Positions 45,109 through 54,069 of a DNA stretch of 64,000 nucleotides are shown here, piece by piece. The stretch covers positions 1 to 64,000 of the forward strand of contig NZ_JACJOU010000021.1 of the NCBI RefSeq assembly GCF_014695725.1. Reading direction: 5' to 3'. The notes below the pieces were generated by a model, which made no database searches, had not been told where the DNA came from, and saw only the letters and a program-made list of their open reading frames with translations. The stretch comes from Microcoleus sp. FACHB-672. Lineage in GTDB: Bacteria > Cyanobacteriota > Cyanobacteriia > Cyanobacteriales > Oscillatoriaceae. Position numbers and translations under genes: made by a program. How positions within the stretch are numbered: position 1 is the stretch's first letter; each line of letters begins with the position of its first letter.

Positions 45109-46527
45109 TCACTCAAGCTTTTTAGAAGTGAGGGGCAGAAAAATCGTAAATACCGCTCCTTCAGGCGCTTTACTGTGAACGCTAATGTTTCCTCCGTGGG
45201 CTACAACAATACGCCGAGCAATGGCTAGTCCCAAGCCCGTTCCACCTTTCTTGCGAGAGGAATCGGCTGTATAAAACTCTTCAAAAATATGGGGGAGATC
45301 AGTTTCGCTGATCCCTGCTCCCTGATCTTGGATTTGGACAGCAACTTTAGAGCCTTCTACTCGCCCAGAAACAAATATTCTAGAGTTTGACACGGAATAC
45401 TTAATCGCATTATCTAGGATGTTTAAAAAAGCTTGCAGTAACCGTTCTGGATCGCCTTGGATCTGCACGTCGGGCATATCTTGCTGGATACTCATTCCTT
45501 TGGTTTGCATCCGCAGTTCCATTGCACTCTCAGCTCGGTTGATGAGATATTGAAGACTCAAAGGTTGCTTCTCCAAATGAACAACACCGGCTTCGAGCCG
45601 GCCTAAATCCAGCAAATCTTGGATCAGCCGTGACAGGCGCACTGTCTCATCCTGTGCAGTTCGGATAAACCGGGCGCGTAACTCCGGTTCTTCAGCAGCT
45701 CCTCTTTCTAGAGCTTCCAGGGTCACTGTAACATTGCTAACGGGAGTGCGGAGTTCGTGAGATACATTTGCCAGGAAGGCTCGCCGTTCATTATCGAGTG
45801 AAGCCAGCCGTTCGCTCATCCGGTTCAATTCAATGGCTAATTGCCCTAGTTCATCGTTGCCCAAGATGTTGAGCTTCTCTCCTAAATGACCACTGCCAAG
45901 GCGCACGGCAAACCGGGACATGGCTTGGATCGGCGTTGCCATGCTGCGGGCGAGCCATAAACTAATCGCAGCACAGAGCAAGAACGTTAAGATCAGGGTT
46001 CCCAGAACCGTAGAAATGATCGTTCTAAACTGGCGCTGGAACTGAGTGAGGGTTAGGGACATCCGCAAAAGACCGATCAGCCGACCATTGCGGTTTAGTG
46101 GCTGCGCGACGAACACTCTGTCATCATTTGAAAGAACACCTTTGCCAAAGCCTAGCACCCGCTTGTTTTGAAGTCCTTTTCTAACGCCTGGAATCTTTAA
46201 CCAGTCTTTTATTTGCCAATCTATTTGTGGAGAGGAGGTAGACAAGAGGCGGCCTTCTGGCCCAAAGATTCGCAGATTGATGGTTTCGGGTGCACCGTAG
46301 CGTTTTACAAGCAATTCTACTTGCCTCAAATCGTTGTCTTCAAGCGCATCGGCTACGCTTTCGCTCAAAGGGGTAGACCAGGTCTCTAATTCTGCCTGTT
46401 TTGTTTTCATGAAAGAGGCGTGGAAAGCCCACAAAAGGTAGCCGGCTAGGAGCGATGTACCGAGTGCAGTTAGCCCTAGGTAAGTGGCTAAAAGTTTGGC
46501 GTGAATGGAATTCCATTTAATCCGAAT
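45109..46527 (-). CDS. Membrane histidine kinase with a probable AUU start codon
   Basis: The frame is read from ATT at 46527 to give 472 residues. The N-terminal residues (I/M)RIKWNSIHAKLLATYLGL place a first membrane helix at about 12-34, then a periplasmic sensor region. The second helix is LGTLILTFLLCAAISLWLA near 180. A HAMP domain follows (NDELGQLAIELNRMSERLA), then the acceptor-His motif FLANVSHELRTPVSNVTVTL near 260 and an ATPase domain with DQGAGISETDLPHIFEEFY and KKGGTGLGLAIARRI. No ATG or GTG is available before the first helix, and a TTG at 46434 would delete most of it. An exact AAGGAGGTGA stands six bases upstream of the ATT. The response regulator at 46786 is probably its partner. 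Confidence 0.85.
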   Translation of the reverse strand: MRIKWNSIHAKLLATYLGLTALGTSLLAGYLLWAFHASFMKTKQAELETWSTPLSESVADALEDNDLRQVELLVKRYGAPETINLRIFGPEGRLLSTSSPQIDWQIKDWLKIPGVRKGLQNKRVLGFGKGVLSNDDRVFVAQPLNRNGRLIGLLRMSLTLTQFQRQFRTIISTVLGTLILTFLLCAAISLWLARSMATPIQAMSRFAVRLGSGHLGEKLNILGNDELGQLAIELNRMSERLASLDNERRAFLANVSHELRTPVSNVTVTLEALERGAAEEPELRARFIRTAQDETVRLSRLIQDLLDLGRLEAGVVHLEKQPLSLQYLINRAESAMELRMQTKGMSIQQDMPDVQIQGDPERLLQAFLNILDNAIKYSVSNSRIFVSGRVEGSKVAVQIQDQGAGISETDLPHIFEEFYTADSSRKKGGTGLGLAIARRIVVAHGGNISVHSKAPEGAVFTIFLPLTSKKLE

Positions 46528-46543
46528 GGTAACTCACCTCCTT
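46525..46543 (-). promoter_or_regulatory. Near-perfect Shine-Dalgarno sequence and ATT start codon
   Basis: On the minus strand, AAGGAGGTGA (46543-46534) matches ten bases of the anti-Shine-Dalgarno complement. It is followed by GTTACC and then ATT (46527-46525). The in-frame TGA at 46536-46534 lies inside the Shine-Dalgarno, so translation of this frame cannot start further upstream. Confidence 0.7.
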
Positions 46544-46580
46544 AAGGCGATTCGTCAGTGATGATTTATTATGAAATCGT

Positions 46581-46606
46581 GAAGCTGAATTGTGGCCTTC
46601 AGCTTC
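46581..46606. other. Nine-base-pair hairpin between the response regulator and kinase genes
   Basis: GAAGCTGAA (46581-46589) pairs perfectly with TTCAGCTTC (46598-46606) around an eight-base loop. It lies about 40 bases upstream of the Shine-Dalgarno of the AUU-started kinase gene. It could be an attenuator or mRNA-processing site in a shared transcript. Confidence 0.5.
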
Positions 46607-46785: not shown

Positions 46786-47175
46786 TTATTTTATTTGTGA
46801 AGAATTTGAGCTACGGGTACACCGGCGCAAGATAGCTTCGATTCGGGCCAGCAGCTCACGAGTGTTAAAAGGTTTGGTGAGATAATCATCTGCCCCGGCT
46901 TTTAACCCCCAAACTTTGTCTGCATCGTGATCTTTGGCAGTCAAAATCAGGATCGGAACATCCGAGAAAGCGCGAATGCGCCAGCAAAGTTCCATTCCAT
47001 CCATTCCCGGTAACATTAAGTCCAAAATAATAATATCTGGCACTTTTTGTTTCACCATTTCTAGTGCAGTTAGTCCATCTCCTGCTGTCATCACTTTATA
47101 GCCTTCTTGCACTAAAGAAAACGTGAGACTCGCCCGAAGTGGTTCTTCATCATCAACTAATAAAACGTGATACAT
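46786..47175 (-). CDS. Single-domain response regulator (receiver only)
   Basis: The 129-residue protein is one receiver domain of OmpR type: acidic pocket VLLVDDEEPLRASL, phospho-acceptor Asp in IIILDLMLPGMDGMELC near residue 53, Thr/Ser switch region LILTAKDHDADKVWGLK, and conserved Lys in DYLTKPFNTRELLARIEAIL. The usual winged-helix output domain is missing. The frame stops five to ten residues after the receiver, and no winged-helix remnant can be seen in the 258 bp before the kinase gene. It therefore either acts as a phosphate shuttle or is a shortened OmpR regulator. It sits between the poly-HAMP hybrid kinase (upstream, 96 bp) and the membrane kinase (downstream). Confidence 0.88.
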   Translation of the reverse strand: MYHVLLVDDEEPLRASLTFSLVQEGYKVMTAGDGLTALEMVKQKVPDIIILDLMLPGMDGMELCWRIRAFSDVPILILTAKDHDADKVWGLKAGADDYLTKPFNTRELLARIEAILRRCTRSSNSSQIK

Positions 47176-47271: not shown

Positions 47272-50200
47272 TTACTGATAGAGCCAGACTCGCAGTAGCG
47301 AGAGCAACTGCTCAGTATCAACCGGCTTGGTAATATAGTCAGACGCACCGGCTTCCAAGCTTTTTTCCCGATCACCTTTCATGGCTTTAGCCGTGAGGGC
47401 GATCATCGGGAGAGAGCGGAATTTAGAAATTTGGCGGATATGGCGCATGGCTTCATACCCATCCATTGTTGGCATCATCACATCCATCAAGACAACATCA
47501 ATGTCCGGTATTGTTTGCAACTTAGAAATGCCATCAGCCCCGCTTTCGGCATTTAAGACGTGCATTTGATGGCGCTCTAACATACTGGTTAGCGCGAAGA
47601 TATTGCGGACATCGTCATCTACGATCAAGACTTTTTTGCCGACCAGAAGCGGGTCTATTTGATACAGCTTTTCAATCATTTGCCGTTTGGGTTCGGGCAA
47701 ATTCTCTTGAACCCGGTGTAGGAACAAAGCCGTTTCATTAAACAGACTTTCTGGCGAACTCAAGACTTTAATGATGATGCTTTCAGAAATCCGCTTGAGT
47801 TCCAATGCTTGCTGTTCAGTTAAGGTTTTCTCGGTGTAAACGATAATGGGCAGAGGGACACCAGCGCCTGAGCCGGCGGTCAACTCCTGAGTGATCTGCT
47901 CAATCAGTTCCAACCCGTTCATATCAGGTAGATCCAAATCGATGACCACACAATCGTAGGGCCGGCCTACAGCATCATCCGTCCCGACTTTTAGAGCTGA
48001 GAGCGCCTCCTCACCCGTTCCCGCTACAGTGGTGACGACGTCGCTGTTGCCGATCAATTCGACAATATTTTGACGCTGATTTTCGTTAACAACCACCACC
48101 AGCAAGTTCTTCACCGGACGCTCAACAAAACGTTTGATATTCACCAACCCCTCAACCAGCGCCTCGCTGCTAACAGGCTTTTGCAGATAAGCCAGCGCTC
48201 CCATTTTCAACCCCCGCTGCCGCGCCGCCTCAACCGTGAGGATATGAACCGGGATATGACGAGTTGCCGGGTTATGCTTTAAACGATCAAGAACCGTCCA
48301 GCCGTCCATTCCTGGCAGCCGGATATCGAGCATGATGGCGTGGGGTTGAAGTTCCTGGGCCATCGTCAAGCCGCTTTCGCTACGCAATGCCACAAGCCCT
48401 TTAAAGCCGACCTGTCGTGCCAGATCTAAGAGGATACGGGCGAAGTTCATGTCGTCCTCCACAATCAACAGCATCTGATCGCCGGGTTGAATATTATCGC
48501 GATCGTCACTTAGTTGCTGCGAGATCGCGAAGGAGGAAGGATCGTTGTTGAAGCCTTGCAGGGATTCTGAGTCAGGAGCGCCGTTAGAGGTAGAATTCTC
48601 TTTACTCGGGGCGCGAAGCAACGGGGCTTCCTCCTTACGCTTATCTGGATTCCATTGCCGGAATTGTGCGAGATTGCTGCTACGCCCTCCGTCGGAATCG
48701 CGCCGCTCCAGCGATAGGTAGTGCAAGTCTTCAGGCTTGGGAGGGTTCACCGGCGGCATATAGGTTTGGGGCAAGTAGAGGGTGAAGGTACTGCCGTGGC
48801 CGAGGCTGCTAACTAAGACAATTTCTCCGCCGAGGAGTCGGGCGATTTCGCGGCTGATGGACAAGCCCAAGCCGGTGCCGCCATATTTGCGGCTGGTGGT
48901 GCCATCTGCCTGCTGGAACGCTTCAAAAATGACTTTTTGTTTTTCGGGGGCGATGCCGATGCCGGTGTCCATCACGGCGAAAGCGACGACAGTCTGGGCG
49001 CGATTTAATGTTTCCTGCTCAGGACTCCATCCCTGGATAGCTTGCTCTACTCGCAACCGCACCTCTCCAGAGTCTGTAAATTTAAAGGCGTTGGAGAGCA
49101 AATTTTTCAGCACTTGCTGCAAGCGTTTCGAGTCGGTATAGATCGCCCTCGGCAGCTTCTCATCAAAAACAAGGCTGAAGCTCAAGCCCTTATCCTGGGC
49201 GACTTGACGGAACGTGCGCTCCATCTGGTTGGACAAATCTGTAAACAGCAGCGGATCAATTTCCACTGACATGGTTCCGGATTCAATTTTGGCCAAATCG
49301 AGGATGTCATTAATCAAGCCCAGCAGATCGGTGCCGGCAGAATGAATGGTGCGGGTGTATTCCACCTGCTTGGGGCTAAGATTGCCATCGGCGTTATCTG
49401 AAAGCAGTCGGGCTAAAATTAACAAGCTATTGAGCGGCGTCCGCAACTCGTGCGACATATTCGCCAAAAACTCTGACTTGTATTTAGAAGTAAGCGCCAA
49501 CTGTTCGGCTTTCTCCTCCACAGACTGCCTCGCCTGTTCAATCTCACCATTCTTGCGTTCAACTTCCCGGTTTTGATCGGACAGCAACCGCGCCTTTTCT
49601 TCGAGTTCTTCGTTGGTTTGCTGCAACTGTTCCTGCTGGTTTTTCAGCAGTTCCTCAGAAGCTTTCAATGATTGAGCTTGCTGTTCTAATCGCTTGTTCG
49701 TCTCTGTCAGTTCTTTCTGCTGGGTTTGCAGTTCTTCTGCCAGTGCTGTGGACTGTTTGAGTAATTCCTCAGTCCGCATACTGGCGGCGATTGTATTGAG
49801 CACGATGGCAATACTTTCCGTGAGCTGATCGAAGAACGTCAGGTGAATCTCACTAAAGCGGCGGAACGAGGCTAATTCAATCACCGCCGTCACTTGCCCC
49901 TCAAACAACACCGGCAGCACAACGGCATTAAGCGGCGTCGATTCCCCTAAACCAGAGCTGATCTTGATATAGTCGTTCGGCACCTCAGTTAGCAGAATTC
50001 GTTCCCGCTCCAAAGCACACTGTCCGACTAACCCTTCACCCAAGTGGAACTGATTTGCCAGATGCTTGCGCTCACGATAAGCATAAGTGCTGAGGAGTTT
50101 CAAAAAGGGTTGATGCGTGATCCCGGCTTCCATGAGGTAGAACACCCCATGTTGAGCGGAAACCAAAGGAGCCAATTCTGAGAGGATGAGTTTGGAAACC

Positions 50201-53200
50201 GTCTCCAAGTCTCGCTGACCCTGTAGCATCCGGGTAAACTTAGCCAAATTGGTCTTCAACCAGTCTTGCTCAGTGTTTTTCTGCGTTGTTTCTCGCAGGT
50301 TGGCAATCATCTGGTTGATGTTGTCTTTAAGGACGGCCACCTCGCCTTCGGCTTGGACGTTAATGGTTCGGGTCAAATCGCCCTTCGTCACGGCGGTTGC
50401 AATTTCAGCAATCGTTCGGATCTGGGTGGTTAAATTCGCTGCCAGTTCGTTCACGTTGTCTGTCAGCGCCCTCCAGGTTCCCGCAGCACCCGGCACTTTG
50501 GCCTGACCACCCAGTTTGCCTTCAATGCCCACTTCTCGCGCTACTGTAGTAACTTGATCGGCAAACGTCGCCAGCGTGTCGATCATCTCGTTGATCGTGT
50601 CGGCTAAGGTTTCAATTTCCCCCTTTGCCTCTAGCATCAGTTTCCGCTTCAAGTCACCATTAGCAACTGCCGTGACCACGCGGGCAATGCCTCGCACTTG
50701 GGCTGTCAGATTGCCGGCCATTGAGTTCACGTTGTCGGTAAGGTCTTTCCAGGTGCCGGCGACGCCCTTGACATCTGCCTGACCGCCTAATTTCCCTTCC
50801 GAACCAACTTCTCGCGCCACCCGTGTAACTTCTGAAGCAAACGAGCTGAGCTGATCCACCATAACGTTAATGGTGTTCTTCAGATCCAAAATCTCGCCTT
50901 TGACATCAACGGTAATCTTCTTAGAAAGGTCGCCGTTTGCCACCGCTTTGGTTACTTCGGCAATATTCCGCACCTGGGCTGTGAGGTTACCGGCCATCGA
51001 GTTCACGTTGTCGGTTAAGTCTTTCCAGGTGCCGGCAACGCCCTTAACATACGCCTGCACACCCAATTTGCCCTCGGTTCCCACCTCTCGCGCCACCCGC
51101 GTGACTTCCGAGGCAAACGAGCTGAGCTGATCCACCATGATGTTTATGGTGTTTTTCAGCTCTAAAATTTCACCTTTAACGTCAACCGTAATTTTCTTAG
51201 ACAGATCCCCGTTTGCTACAGCCGTCGTCACTTCCGCAATATTCCGCACCTGGGCTGTGAGATTACCGGCCATTGAGTTAACGCTGTCGGTTAAGTCTTT
51301 CCAGGTGCCGGCTACCCCTCGAACTTCCGCTTGTACGCCTAATTTCCCTTCGGTTCCCACCTCTCGCGCCACCCGCGTGACTTCTGAAGCGAAGGAGTTG
51401 AGCTGATCCACCATAACGTTGACGGTGTTTTTCAGCTCTAAAATTTCCCCTTTAACATCAACCGTAATCTTCTTAGAAAGGTCGCCGTTAGCTACAGCCG
51501 TCGTTACAGCCGCAATGTTTCGCACTTGCGCGGTTAATGAGCCGGCCATGAAATTCACGCTATCGGTTAAATCTTTCCAGGTGCCGGCGACTCCGCGCAC
51601 ATCTGCCTGACCGCCTAATTTCCCTTCCGAACCCACCTCTCGCGCCACCCGTGTTACTTCCGAGGCAAACGAGCTGAGCTGATCCACCATGACGTTGATC
51701 GTGTTTTTCAGCTCTAAAATTTCACCTTTCACCTGTACGGTAATTTTCTTGGAGAGGTCGCCATTTGCGATTGCGGTTGCCACCTCCGCAATGTTCCGCA
51801 CCTGGGCTGTCAGGTTACCGGCCATTGAGTTCACGTTGTCGGTTAAGTCTTTCCAGGTGCCGGCGACGCCTCGGACTTCCGCTTGCACGCCTAATTTCCC
51901 TTCGGTTCCCACCTCTCGCGCCACCCGTGTTACTTCCGAGGCAAACGAGCTAAGCTGATCCACCATGACGTTGATCGTGTTTTTCAGCTCTAAAATTTCA
52001 CCTTTAACGTCAACCGTAATTTTCTTGGAGAGGTCGCCATTTGCAATCGCGGTTGCCACTTCGGCAATGTTCCGCACTTGGGCGGTTAGATTGCCGGCCA
52101 TTGAGTTCACGTTGTCGGTTAAGTCTTTCCAGGTGCCGGCAACCCCTCGCACTTCCGCTTGCACACCCAATTTCCCCTCAGTTCCCACCTCTCGCGCCAC
52201 CCGTGTTACTTCTGAGGCGAAGGAGTTGAGCTGATCCACCATGATGTTTATGGTGTTTTTCAGCTCTAAAATTTCCCCTTTAACGTCAACCGTAATTTTC
52301 TTCGAGAGATCCCCGTTCGCTACAGCCGTCGTCACTTCCGCAATATTCCGCACTTGGGCGGTTAATGAGCCGGCCATGAAATTAACGCTATCCGTTAAAT
52401 CTTTCCAGGTGCCGGCAACCCCCTTAACATCTGCTTGACCGCCTAATTTCCCTTCCGAACCCACCTCTCGCGCCACCCGCGTGACTTCTGAGGCGAAGGA
52501 GTTGAGCTGATCGACCATGATGTTGATGGTGTTTTTCAGCTCTAAAATTTCACCTTTTACGTCAACCGTAATTTTCTTGGAAAGGTCTCCGTTCGCTACA
52601 GCCGTCGTCACCTCTGCAATATTCCGCACTTGGGCGGTTAGATTGCCGGCCATTGAGTTAACGCTATCCGTTAAGTCTTTCCAGGTGCCGGCAACCCCTC
52701 GCACTTCCGCTTGTACGCCTAATTTGCCTTCGGTTCCCACCTCTCGCGCCACCCGCGTGACTTCTGAGGCAAAGGAGTTGAGCTGATCCACCATGATGTT
52801 GATGGTGTTTTTCAGCTCTAAAATTTCACCTCTAACGTCAACGGTGATTTTCTTGGAAAGGTCGCCATTAGCTACAGCTGTCGTGACTTCGGCAATATTC
52901 CGCACTTGGGCGGTTAATGAGCCGGCCATGAAATTTACGCTATCTGTTAAATCTTTCCAGGTGCCGGCAACGCCTCGAACTTCCGCTTGTACACCTAATT
53001 TCCCTTCCGAACCGACTTCTCGCGCCACCCGTGTCACTTCTGAGGCAAAGGAGTTGAGCTGATCCACCATGATGTTGACGGTATTTTTCAGCTCTAAAAT
53101 TTCACCTTTTACGTCAACCGTAATTTTCTTAGACAAATCCCCATTAGCTACAGCCGTCGTCACTTCCGCGATGTTCCGAACTTGGGCGGTTAAGTTACCG

Positions 53201-54069
53201 GCCATTGAGTTAACGCTATCTGTTAAATCTTTCCAGGTGCCGGCGACTCCGCGCACATCTGCCTGCACACCTAATTTGCCTTCGGTTCCGACTTCTCTCG
53301 CTACCCGTGTTACTTCTGAGGCAAAAGAGTTGAGCTGATCCACCATGATGTTGATCGTGTTTTTCAGCTCTAAAATTTCGCCTTTTACATCTACGGTAAT
53401 TTTCTTAGAAAGGTCGCCGTTTGCAACTGCTGTCGTGACTTCCGCAATATTCCGAACTTGGGCGGTTAAGTTACCGGCCATTGAATTAACGCTATCCGTT
53501 AAATCTTTCCAGGTGCCGGCGACGCCTTGAACTTCGGCTTGCACGCCTAATTTCCCTTCCGAACCGACTTCTCGCGCCACCCGTGTTACTTCTGAGGCGA
53601 AGGAACTCAGTTGATCAACCATTGTGTTGACAATTTTGGCGGTTTGAAGGAATTCTCCTTTTAGGGGTCGGCCTTCTATTTCGGGTGCGATCTTTTGCGA
53701 TAAATCACCATTTGCAACCGCCCGAATGACTCTGGCAGTTTCGGCTGTGGGCTGGACTAAATCTGTGATGAGGGTATTGACAGAATTAACGCTTGCTGTC
53801 CAAGAACCGCCGGCGTTTCCTAGTGATGCCCGCTGGGTAATTTTACCTTCTTTCCCAACAACGGTGCCAATCCGCTCTAATTCAGCGGCCATCCTTTCAT
53901 TGAGTTCGATGATATCGTTGAGCGTATCCGCAATTTTACCCGCCGTGCCGGTCTGATCGAGGGGCATCCGCACAGAAAAATCACCTTTCTTGACAGCGGC
54001 GAGTATTCTTAATAGCTGTTTTTCATCTAAATCGTCTGTACGATCTTGGACTGCTTGATTGCTTGACAT
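47272..54069 (-). CDS. Giant poly-HAMP hybrid histidine kinase with three receivers
   Basis: The 2265-residue soluble protein is related to the poly-HAMP group III kinases, which include fungal Nik1/Os-1. After a first divergent HAMP unit (to about residue 150), twelve 92-residue units run to about 1260, each with [24 protein letters not shown] and [15 protein letters not shown] domain follows at about 1290-1440 and a long coiled coil to about 1560. The kinase core has the acceptor His in [18 protein letters not shown]-box [10 protein letters not shown], and G box [19 protein letters not shown]. Three receiver domains close the protein: [14 protein letters not shown] with [12 protein letters not shown], a degenerate second one with [12 protein letters not shown], and [14 protein letters not shown] with [16 protein letters not shown]. 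No membrane segment is present, so it senses an internal or osmotic signal. Confidence 0.95.
50300..53630 (-). repeat. Twelve 276-bp tandem repeats encoding HAMP units
   Basis: Twelve copies with a period of about 276 bp encode the 92-residue units. A CTTTCCAGGTGCCGGC landmark recurs at this spacing (for example near 50745, 51021, 51297). Most copies differ by only a few residues. Two types alternate in part of the array: EVGSEGKLG with NFMAGSL, and EVGTEGKLG with NSMAGNL. The last two units are more divergent. Six-frame translation yields long antisense frames here, which are an artefact of the repeat. Confidence 0.92.

Follow-up and report, generated by a model that had tools for sequence, protein, structure and literature searches.

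Start codons other than ATG, GTG and TTG can be rescued by an extended Shine-Dalgarno sequence (SD). In the available part of one study, AUU and AUA starts behind extended SDs in Staphylococcus aureus are given about 10% of the AUG yield in poor medium and, for one gene, up to 30% in rich medium (PMC13009471). Specifically, cvfC1 starts at AUU and ccpN at AUA, and the ccpN start is stated there to be conserved in B. subtilis (PMC13009471). The gene discussed here encodes a sensor histidine kinase of the cyanobacterium Microcoleus sp. FACHB-672 and is located in a window of 64,000 nucleotides, the whole stretch of DNA that was analysed. As far as the excerpt of that study goes, the kinase shares with the S. 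aureus set the AUU or AUA codon, the well-spaced extended SD and the conservation across species. It differs in phylum and gene class, and while the S. aureus starts were demonstrated with ribosome footprints and reporters, the kinase start was approached by comparison alone. Furthermore, the SD-AUU layout of the kinase comes and goes between lineages, unlike the starts of the S. aureus set in the excerpt.

In Streptomyces, sigR has a GTC start that is repressed by IF3, according to the accessible portion of a second source (PMC5472188). Both sigR and the kinase gene take part in signalling and belong to an operon, and in both cases a poor start codon would set the dose relative to a partner. 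The two differ in the codon, GTC instead of AUU, and in the partnership, which is a sigma/antisigma pair for sigR and a kinase with its regulator here; the IF3 effect was shown, in that portion of the text, for sigR only. The same portion describes infC of E. coli, which has an AUU start and undergoes IF3 autoregulation (PMC5472188). The AUU start is common to infC and the kinase gene, whereas the kinase is not IF3. Another phosphorelay protein, the RcsD-HPt fragment, also starts at AUU with a ribosome-binding site, as an extract of its description states (PMC10191623). Unlike the kinase start, the start in this extract is internal to a longer gene and yields an HPt fragment instead of a whole kinase.

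Across prokaryotes, weak starts go with stronger SDs, and the part of the survey at hand reports no significant association between changes in SD strength and start switches (PMC5622118). The same part lists a single AUG-to-AUU switch for 61,358 ancestral starts with AUG and a single GUG-to-AUU switch for 5,080 with GUG (PMC5622118). No AUU-started whole sensor kinase or cyanobacterial gene was found in the literature, as judged by titles and abstract openings among the matches listed. Rescue of a non-canonical start by an extended SD is known, and its apparent recurrence within one kinase family adds interest to this locus.

The kinase gene and its proposed start

The kinase gene, taken to begin at the proposed AUU and to end with the stop codon, lies on the minus strand at 45109..46527 and comprises 472 aa. 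Its product is a transmembrane HAMP sensor histidine kinase, with Pfam matches to HATPase_c (4e-30), HisKA (1e-17) and HAMP (6e-10) that all exceed their cut-offs. The domains follow the order helix 1, sensor region, helix 2, HAMP, HisKA and HATPase_c, and the sensor region shows a weak match to dCache_1, below its cut-off. In Kyte-Doolittle profiles over 19 residues, helix 1 peaks at 1.54, just below the preset 1.6, and helix 2 at 2.46. Elsewhere in the window, at positions 50693-53631, a 276-bp unit is repeated in tandem about 10.6 times within a 2265-aa ORF (47272-54069); at a guess, these repeats could be HAMP-type modules of a hybrid kinase.

On the minus strand, the open kinase frame extends from 46533 as far as its stop at 45109. 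It begins with GTT ACC ATT CGG ATT AAA straight after an in-frame TGA (46534..46536, minus strand), which overlaps the SD and closes the frame to any upstream start. From this TGA to the end of helix 1 there is no in-frame ATG, GTG or TTG; the preliminary description of this DNA had noted that none occurs before the helix. The first canonical codon downstream is a TTG (46432..46434, minus strand), which encodes residue 32, where helix 1 ends. The proposed start codon is the ATT at 46525..46527 (minus strand). It is preceded by the extended SD AAGGAGGTGA at 46534..46543 (minus strand), which comprises 10 bases complementary to the 16S tail and is separated from the ATT by six bases (GTTACC). 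The earlier observation of an ATT six bases behind a ten-base SD is confirmed, with the addition of the strand, which had been left out: all of these elements are on the minus strand.

The duplex of the kinase SD with the 16S tail amounts to -17.0 kcal/mol. For comparison, 43 long ORFs of the window, some of which may not be genes, show an SD pairing of -8.6 kcal/mol at best at their first ATG, and a fraction of 5e-5 of 20,000 random positions reaches -17 kcal/mol. Only one of the 3180 ATT triplets in the window has an SD at -17, namely the kinase ATT. The 6.37 Mb genome contains 17 copies of AAGGAGGTGA and 11 of the reversed control, so that the motif itself is barely enriched. One of the 17 sites (L166) is presumably the complement of the 16S 3' end. 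An ATT-led ORF of at least 40 codons is found behind AAGGAGGTGA only at the kinase site; other sites precede a GTG ORF of 182 codons, TTG/CTG ORFs of 152/151 codons and a CTG ORF of 63 codons (one site each). The pattern AAGGAGG-N6-10-ATT is present in 43 copies versus 50 for the reversed control, i.e., without excess. Of these 43 sites, the one at the kinase is alone in having a long ORF (472 codons) led by the ATT and no canonical codon in frame farther upstream. On contig 24 of the same genome (L271), an 89-codon ORF lies behind AAGGAGG-N8-ATT, with a stop just before the ATT, and is a second, lesser candidate for an AUU start.

The preliminary description had also drawn attention to a 9-bp hairpin upstream of the kinase. 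This hairpin is present in this genome (46581..46606, minus strand), where 37 nt separate its end from the SD and 53 nt from the ATT, but its stem is broken in both congeners, and it was rejected as a conserved regulator. The z value of the leader fold is -4.69 here versus -0.01 and -1.51 in the two congeners. Another possible hairpin of 7 bp, UCGCCUU-AAG-GAGGUGA (46534..46550, minus strand), is predicted to cover the SD. Its sequence is invariant in the three genus genomes, two of which contain it in their predicted minimum-energy fold. The bases of the kinase SD are predicted to be mostly paired, although not unusually so in comparison with 128 GGAG sites in the window. Neither hairpin was assigned a role; in the case of the second one, the accessibility of the SD is ordinary and the invariant sequence within the genus makes covariation uninformative. 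Rfam models at gathering thresholds gave 0 matches on the 64-kb window.

Conservation within the genus and rival starts

Among 60 relatives, the best matches to the kinase are those of two congeners, with 96 and 92% protein identity. TGA, SD and ATT are kept in both congeners (3/3 genus genomes seen), and TTAAGGAGGTGAGTTAC-N-ATT is present in both. A block of 27 nt up to just before the ATT is identical in the three congeners, and the leader farther upstream is variable. Draft assemblies do carry single-base errors, and a sequencing or assembly error could conceal a real ATG or GTG codon. Such an error is extremely unlikely, because three genus assemblies agree on TGA, SD and ATT, and the SD-ATT layout is also found in other families. 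For the same reason, resequencing is unlikely to reveal an ATG at 46527.

In the sister lineage, genome G004 carries an ATG at the column of the ATT, with M-G-V-N-W-N-S-I aligned to I-R-I-K-W-N-S-I. Genome G312 likewise has an ATG at this column, plus another ATG eight codons upstream. The alignment of orthologues that the preliminary description had proposed for the ATT codon strongly supports an AUU start, with ATT in both congeners, ATG at the column in G004 and SD-ATT in other families.

The TTG at 46434 is a normal start codon and heads a 441-aa ORF in a mechanical ORF list. With a start at this TTG or farther downstream, the conserved stretch that precedes it would be leader RNA. The substitutions in this stretch make such a start very improbable. 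Between the ATT and the TTG, the three congeneric pairs show 2, 2 and 3 synonymous changes and 0 amino-acid changes. In L039/L041, L046/L048 and L051/L052, the synonymous and amino-acid changes are 1:0, 7:1 and 6:0, respectively. Changes that are almost all synonymous in six pairs indicate that the stretch is translated, which argues against a start at the TTG. This start would also remove helix 1, which is conserved among ATG-started orthologues. Furthermore, the TTG codon reads CTG in L052, G018 and G045, and the SD points to the ATT and not to the TTG. As an alternative start, the TTG is therefore poor.

An out-of-frame ATG in AAATGG, which is present in all three congeners, opens a 58-codon ORF (46516-46340), and a frameshift from this ORF into the kinase frame was considered as well. 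Its probability is negligible: the distance between the ATG and the GGAGG core is about 20 nt, the ATG results from the codons AAA TGG (Lys-Trp), and the kinase-frame residues before AAATGG are conserved. In addition, AUU-type rows such as L039, L040, L041, L048 and L062 have CGC TGG and no ATG at this position. AUU is very likely the start codon of the kinase, as no other start fits, the N-terminal codons appear to be selected as protein and the SD-AUU layout is found in other lineages.

Start types among the orthologues

Orthologues were collected by an order search (388 genomes, 47 matching), two family searches (8/10 and 5/6 genomes matching), a class search (388 genomes, 29 matching) and from a named genome collection (80 loci kept out of 83); the order, family, class and collection sets overlap. 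From 127 loci, two without an N-terminus (L153, L159) were removed and 21 identical ones merged, giving 104 rows. The 29 loci of the class search contributed 14 new ones, which results in 118 distinct N-termini. A second G565 copy and a C-terminal G006 piece (L014) stand outside these counts. The frame of the kinase orthologue L081 (G110) is disrupted, and that of L080 (G224) contains runs of N. A row was assigned to the ATG type if it has an in-frame ATG in the region from 40 codons upstream, or the nearest stop, to three codons past the ATT column.

An in-frame ATG near the start is present in 107 of the 118 N-termini and absent from 11. The last in-frame ATG lies 4 or 5 codons before the column in 79, fourteen codons before it in 10 and after it in 3. 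In L210, L211 and L213, the sole nearby in-frame ATG is found two codons after the ATT column, and a long open frame extends upstream. In ten of the 11 rows without ATG, an in-frame ATT is preceded by GGAG at 8-10 nt, while only 2 of the 107 ATG types have GGAG 6 or 12 nt before one. This contrast gives a Fisher value of 7e-12, which is not a true probability, as the rows are related. If L210, L211 and L213 are moved across, the contrast becomes 10/14 versus 2/104. Strong SDs also occur among ATG types, with GGAG 6-12 nt before the ATG in 26 of 85. The use of ATT instead of ATC or ATA was dropped as proof of a start, given that ATT accounts for 52% of the Ile codons in the ten AUU-type genes. 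ATT is found at the same column in 21 of the 104 rows, many of them with a plain Ile behind an ATG.

The ten AUU rows are the three congeners, L039/L041, L046/L048, L040, L062 and L052, the last of which is a single genome. Five of them lack every canonical start (L035-L037, L052, L062). The other five retain a TTG that is badly spaced or without SD: it abuts the SD in L039 and L041, lies nine codons upstream in L046 and L048, and follows GGAGT by three bases in L040. In the eleventh row without ATG, L038, a TTG overlapping the regulator stop is located one codon before the column. The codon five positions before the ATT is AGG in L046, L048, L040 and the congeners, whereas ATG types, for example L043 and L045, have ATG there. 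In L046, L048, L040 and the congeners, the former ATG start position thus seems to have been absorbed into the SD. In row L062, a group II intron is located at a contig break. The kinase orthologue of this genome, G027, is split over two contigs (L013 2251-2327; end of L062), and the break matches the Rfam group II catalytic intron with 54.7 bits, so an intron seems to be located inside the sensor-kinase gene of G027.

A maximum-likelihood tree was built from the 104 N-terminal regions. The three congeners group in one clade, and its sister comprises G004 and G312 (100/95), both on long branches. L052 is sister to L051 (100/100), in which an ATG lies two codons before the column. L062 and the AUU types L039, L041, L046, L048 and L040 fall into a 12-row clade (100/99) together with six rows of other types, including L038. 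On the tree, 5 changes are required for the ten AUU rows, and starred branches force 4 of these; for the five rows that lack every canonical start, the number is 3, all 3 forced. Each change can be read as a gain or a loss, and support for the deepest fork of the tree is weak (54/79).

Operon context and the dose of the kinase

Directly upstream of the kinase, at 46786..47175 on the minus strand, a receiver-only response regulator of 129 aa is encoded, a description that refers to the window copy of the regulator only. A relative of this regulator is found upstream of the kinase at 102 of 104 loci. None was found at L051, where the contig ends, or at L080, where the upstream sequence is partly N. 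At L053, the regulator lies 845 nt from the kinase. In 68 of the 83 measured ATG types, the kinase start is at most 21 nt from the regulator stop, and 30 of those overlap. All AUU types (10/10) have the kinase start 27-258 nt from the regulator stop. A distance above 21 nt is also found in 15 of the 83 ATG types, and hence distance by itself does not go with AUU.

In most relatives, where the kinase start overlaps or nearly touches the regulator stop, the kinase dose could follow the regulator by coupling. Where the genes drifted apart, an independent weak start may have taken over in some lineages. At the present locus, the ordinary initiator tRNA would start kinase translation at the AUU at 46527. 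The well-spaced, near-perfect SD would anchor the 30S subunit and offset the poor pairing of the codon with the initiator anticodon. Initiation would proceed at a fraction of the AUG rate and hold the kinase at a low level compared with its response regulator, and it may be sensitive to IF3 and the supply of free ribosomes. It is quite probable that translation starts at the AUU at 46527 with the help of its near-perfect SD, as the comparison supports, and that this start, presumably of low yield, would keep the kinase dose low. By its frame, SD and conservation, the kinase would belong to the class of conserved non-canonical starts rescued by an extended SD. The likeliest role appears to be that of a weak, SD-rescued start limiting the kinase dose, and translational control of the sensor kinase is plausible.

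The same start could also have arisen by neutral drift, in which an SD appeared by chance, the ATG was lost and the AUU yields enough kinase, without any regulatory value. This explanation agrees on the AUU start and differs only as to the role of that start, and its probability, which is considerable but below even, overlaps with that of a dose-limiting start. In the ATG-started rows L043 and L053, ATT is already an internal Ile codon at the column and was hence at hand, and the tendency of weak starts to accompany stronger SDs, in the accessible part of the survey, is in line with drift (PMC5622118). The retention of AUU in all three genus genomes, in which a single base change would give ATG, speaks against drift.

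The preliminary description had likened the kinase start to the AUU of infC, which marks control by IF3. Genes for infC were searched in 40 genomes, of which 39 matched, and the loci of the best 30 of these 39 genomes, window genome included, were read. GTG is present at the conserved infC start region in 28 of these 30 loci, again including the window genome, and we infer it to be the true infC start. AUU in place of this GTG was found in none of the 30 loci read. In L201 (genome G028), the codon is GTA where 28/30 have GTG, no ATG is present there and the nearest canonical codons seen are TTGs farther upstream, so that this infC may have an unusual start. With GTG and not AUU at its conserved start region, infC of this lineage differs from infC of E. 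coli. The parallel therefore fails for this lineage: the infC analogy applies to E. coli, and the E. coli loop is not directly transferable. A non-canonical infC start in the same organism, as expected for IF3-type control, is not what the infC locus shows.

A weak start that limits the kinase dose may have arisen repeatedly. Tentatively, the regulator-coupled AUG of this receiver-kinase operon may have been replaced several times by a strong SD and an AUU, sometimes with conversion of the old ATG into SD. The result would be a convergent dial that keeps the kinase below the regulator, in a lineage whose infC lacks AUU.

Gene callers that accept only ATG, GTG and TTG would probably clip helix 1 from this kinase, as the mechanical ORF list does. 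The closely related ATG and AUU versions of one operon represent a natural experiment on the setting of kinase dose. A kept AUU start of a whole sensor kinase would extend the short list of such starts to cyanobacterial two-component signalling.
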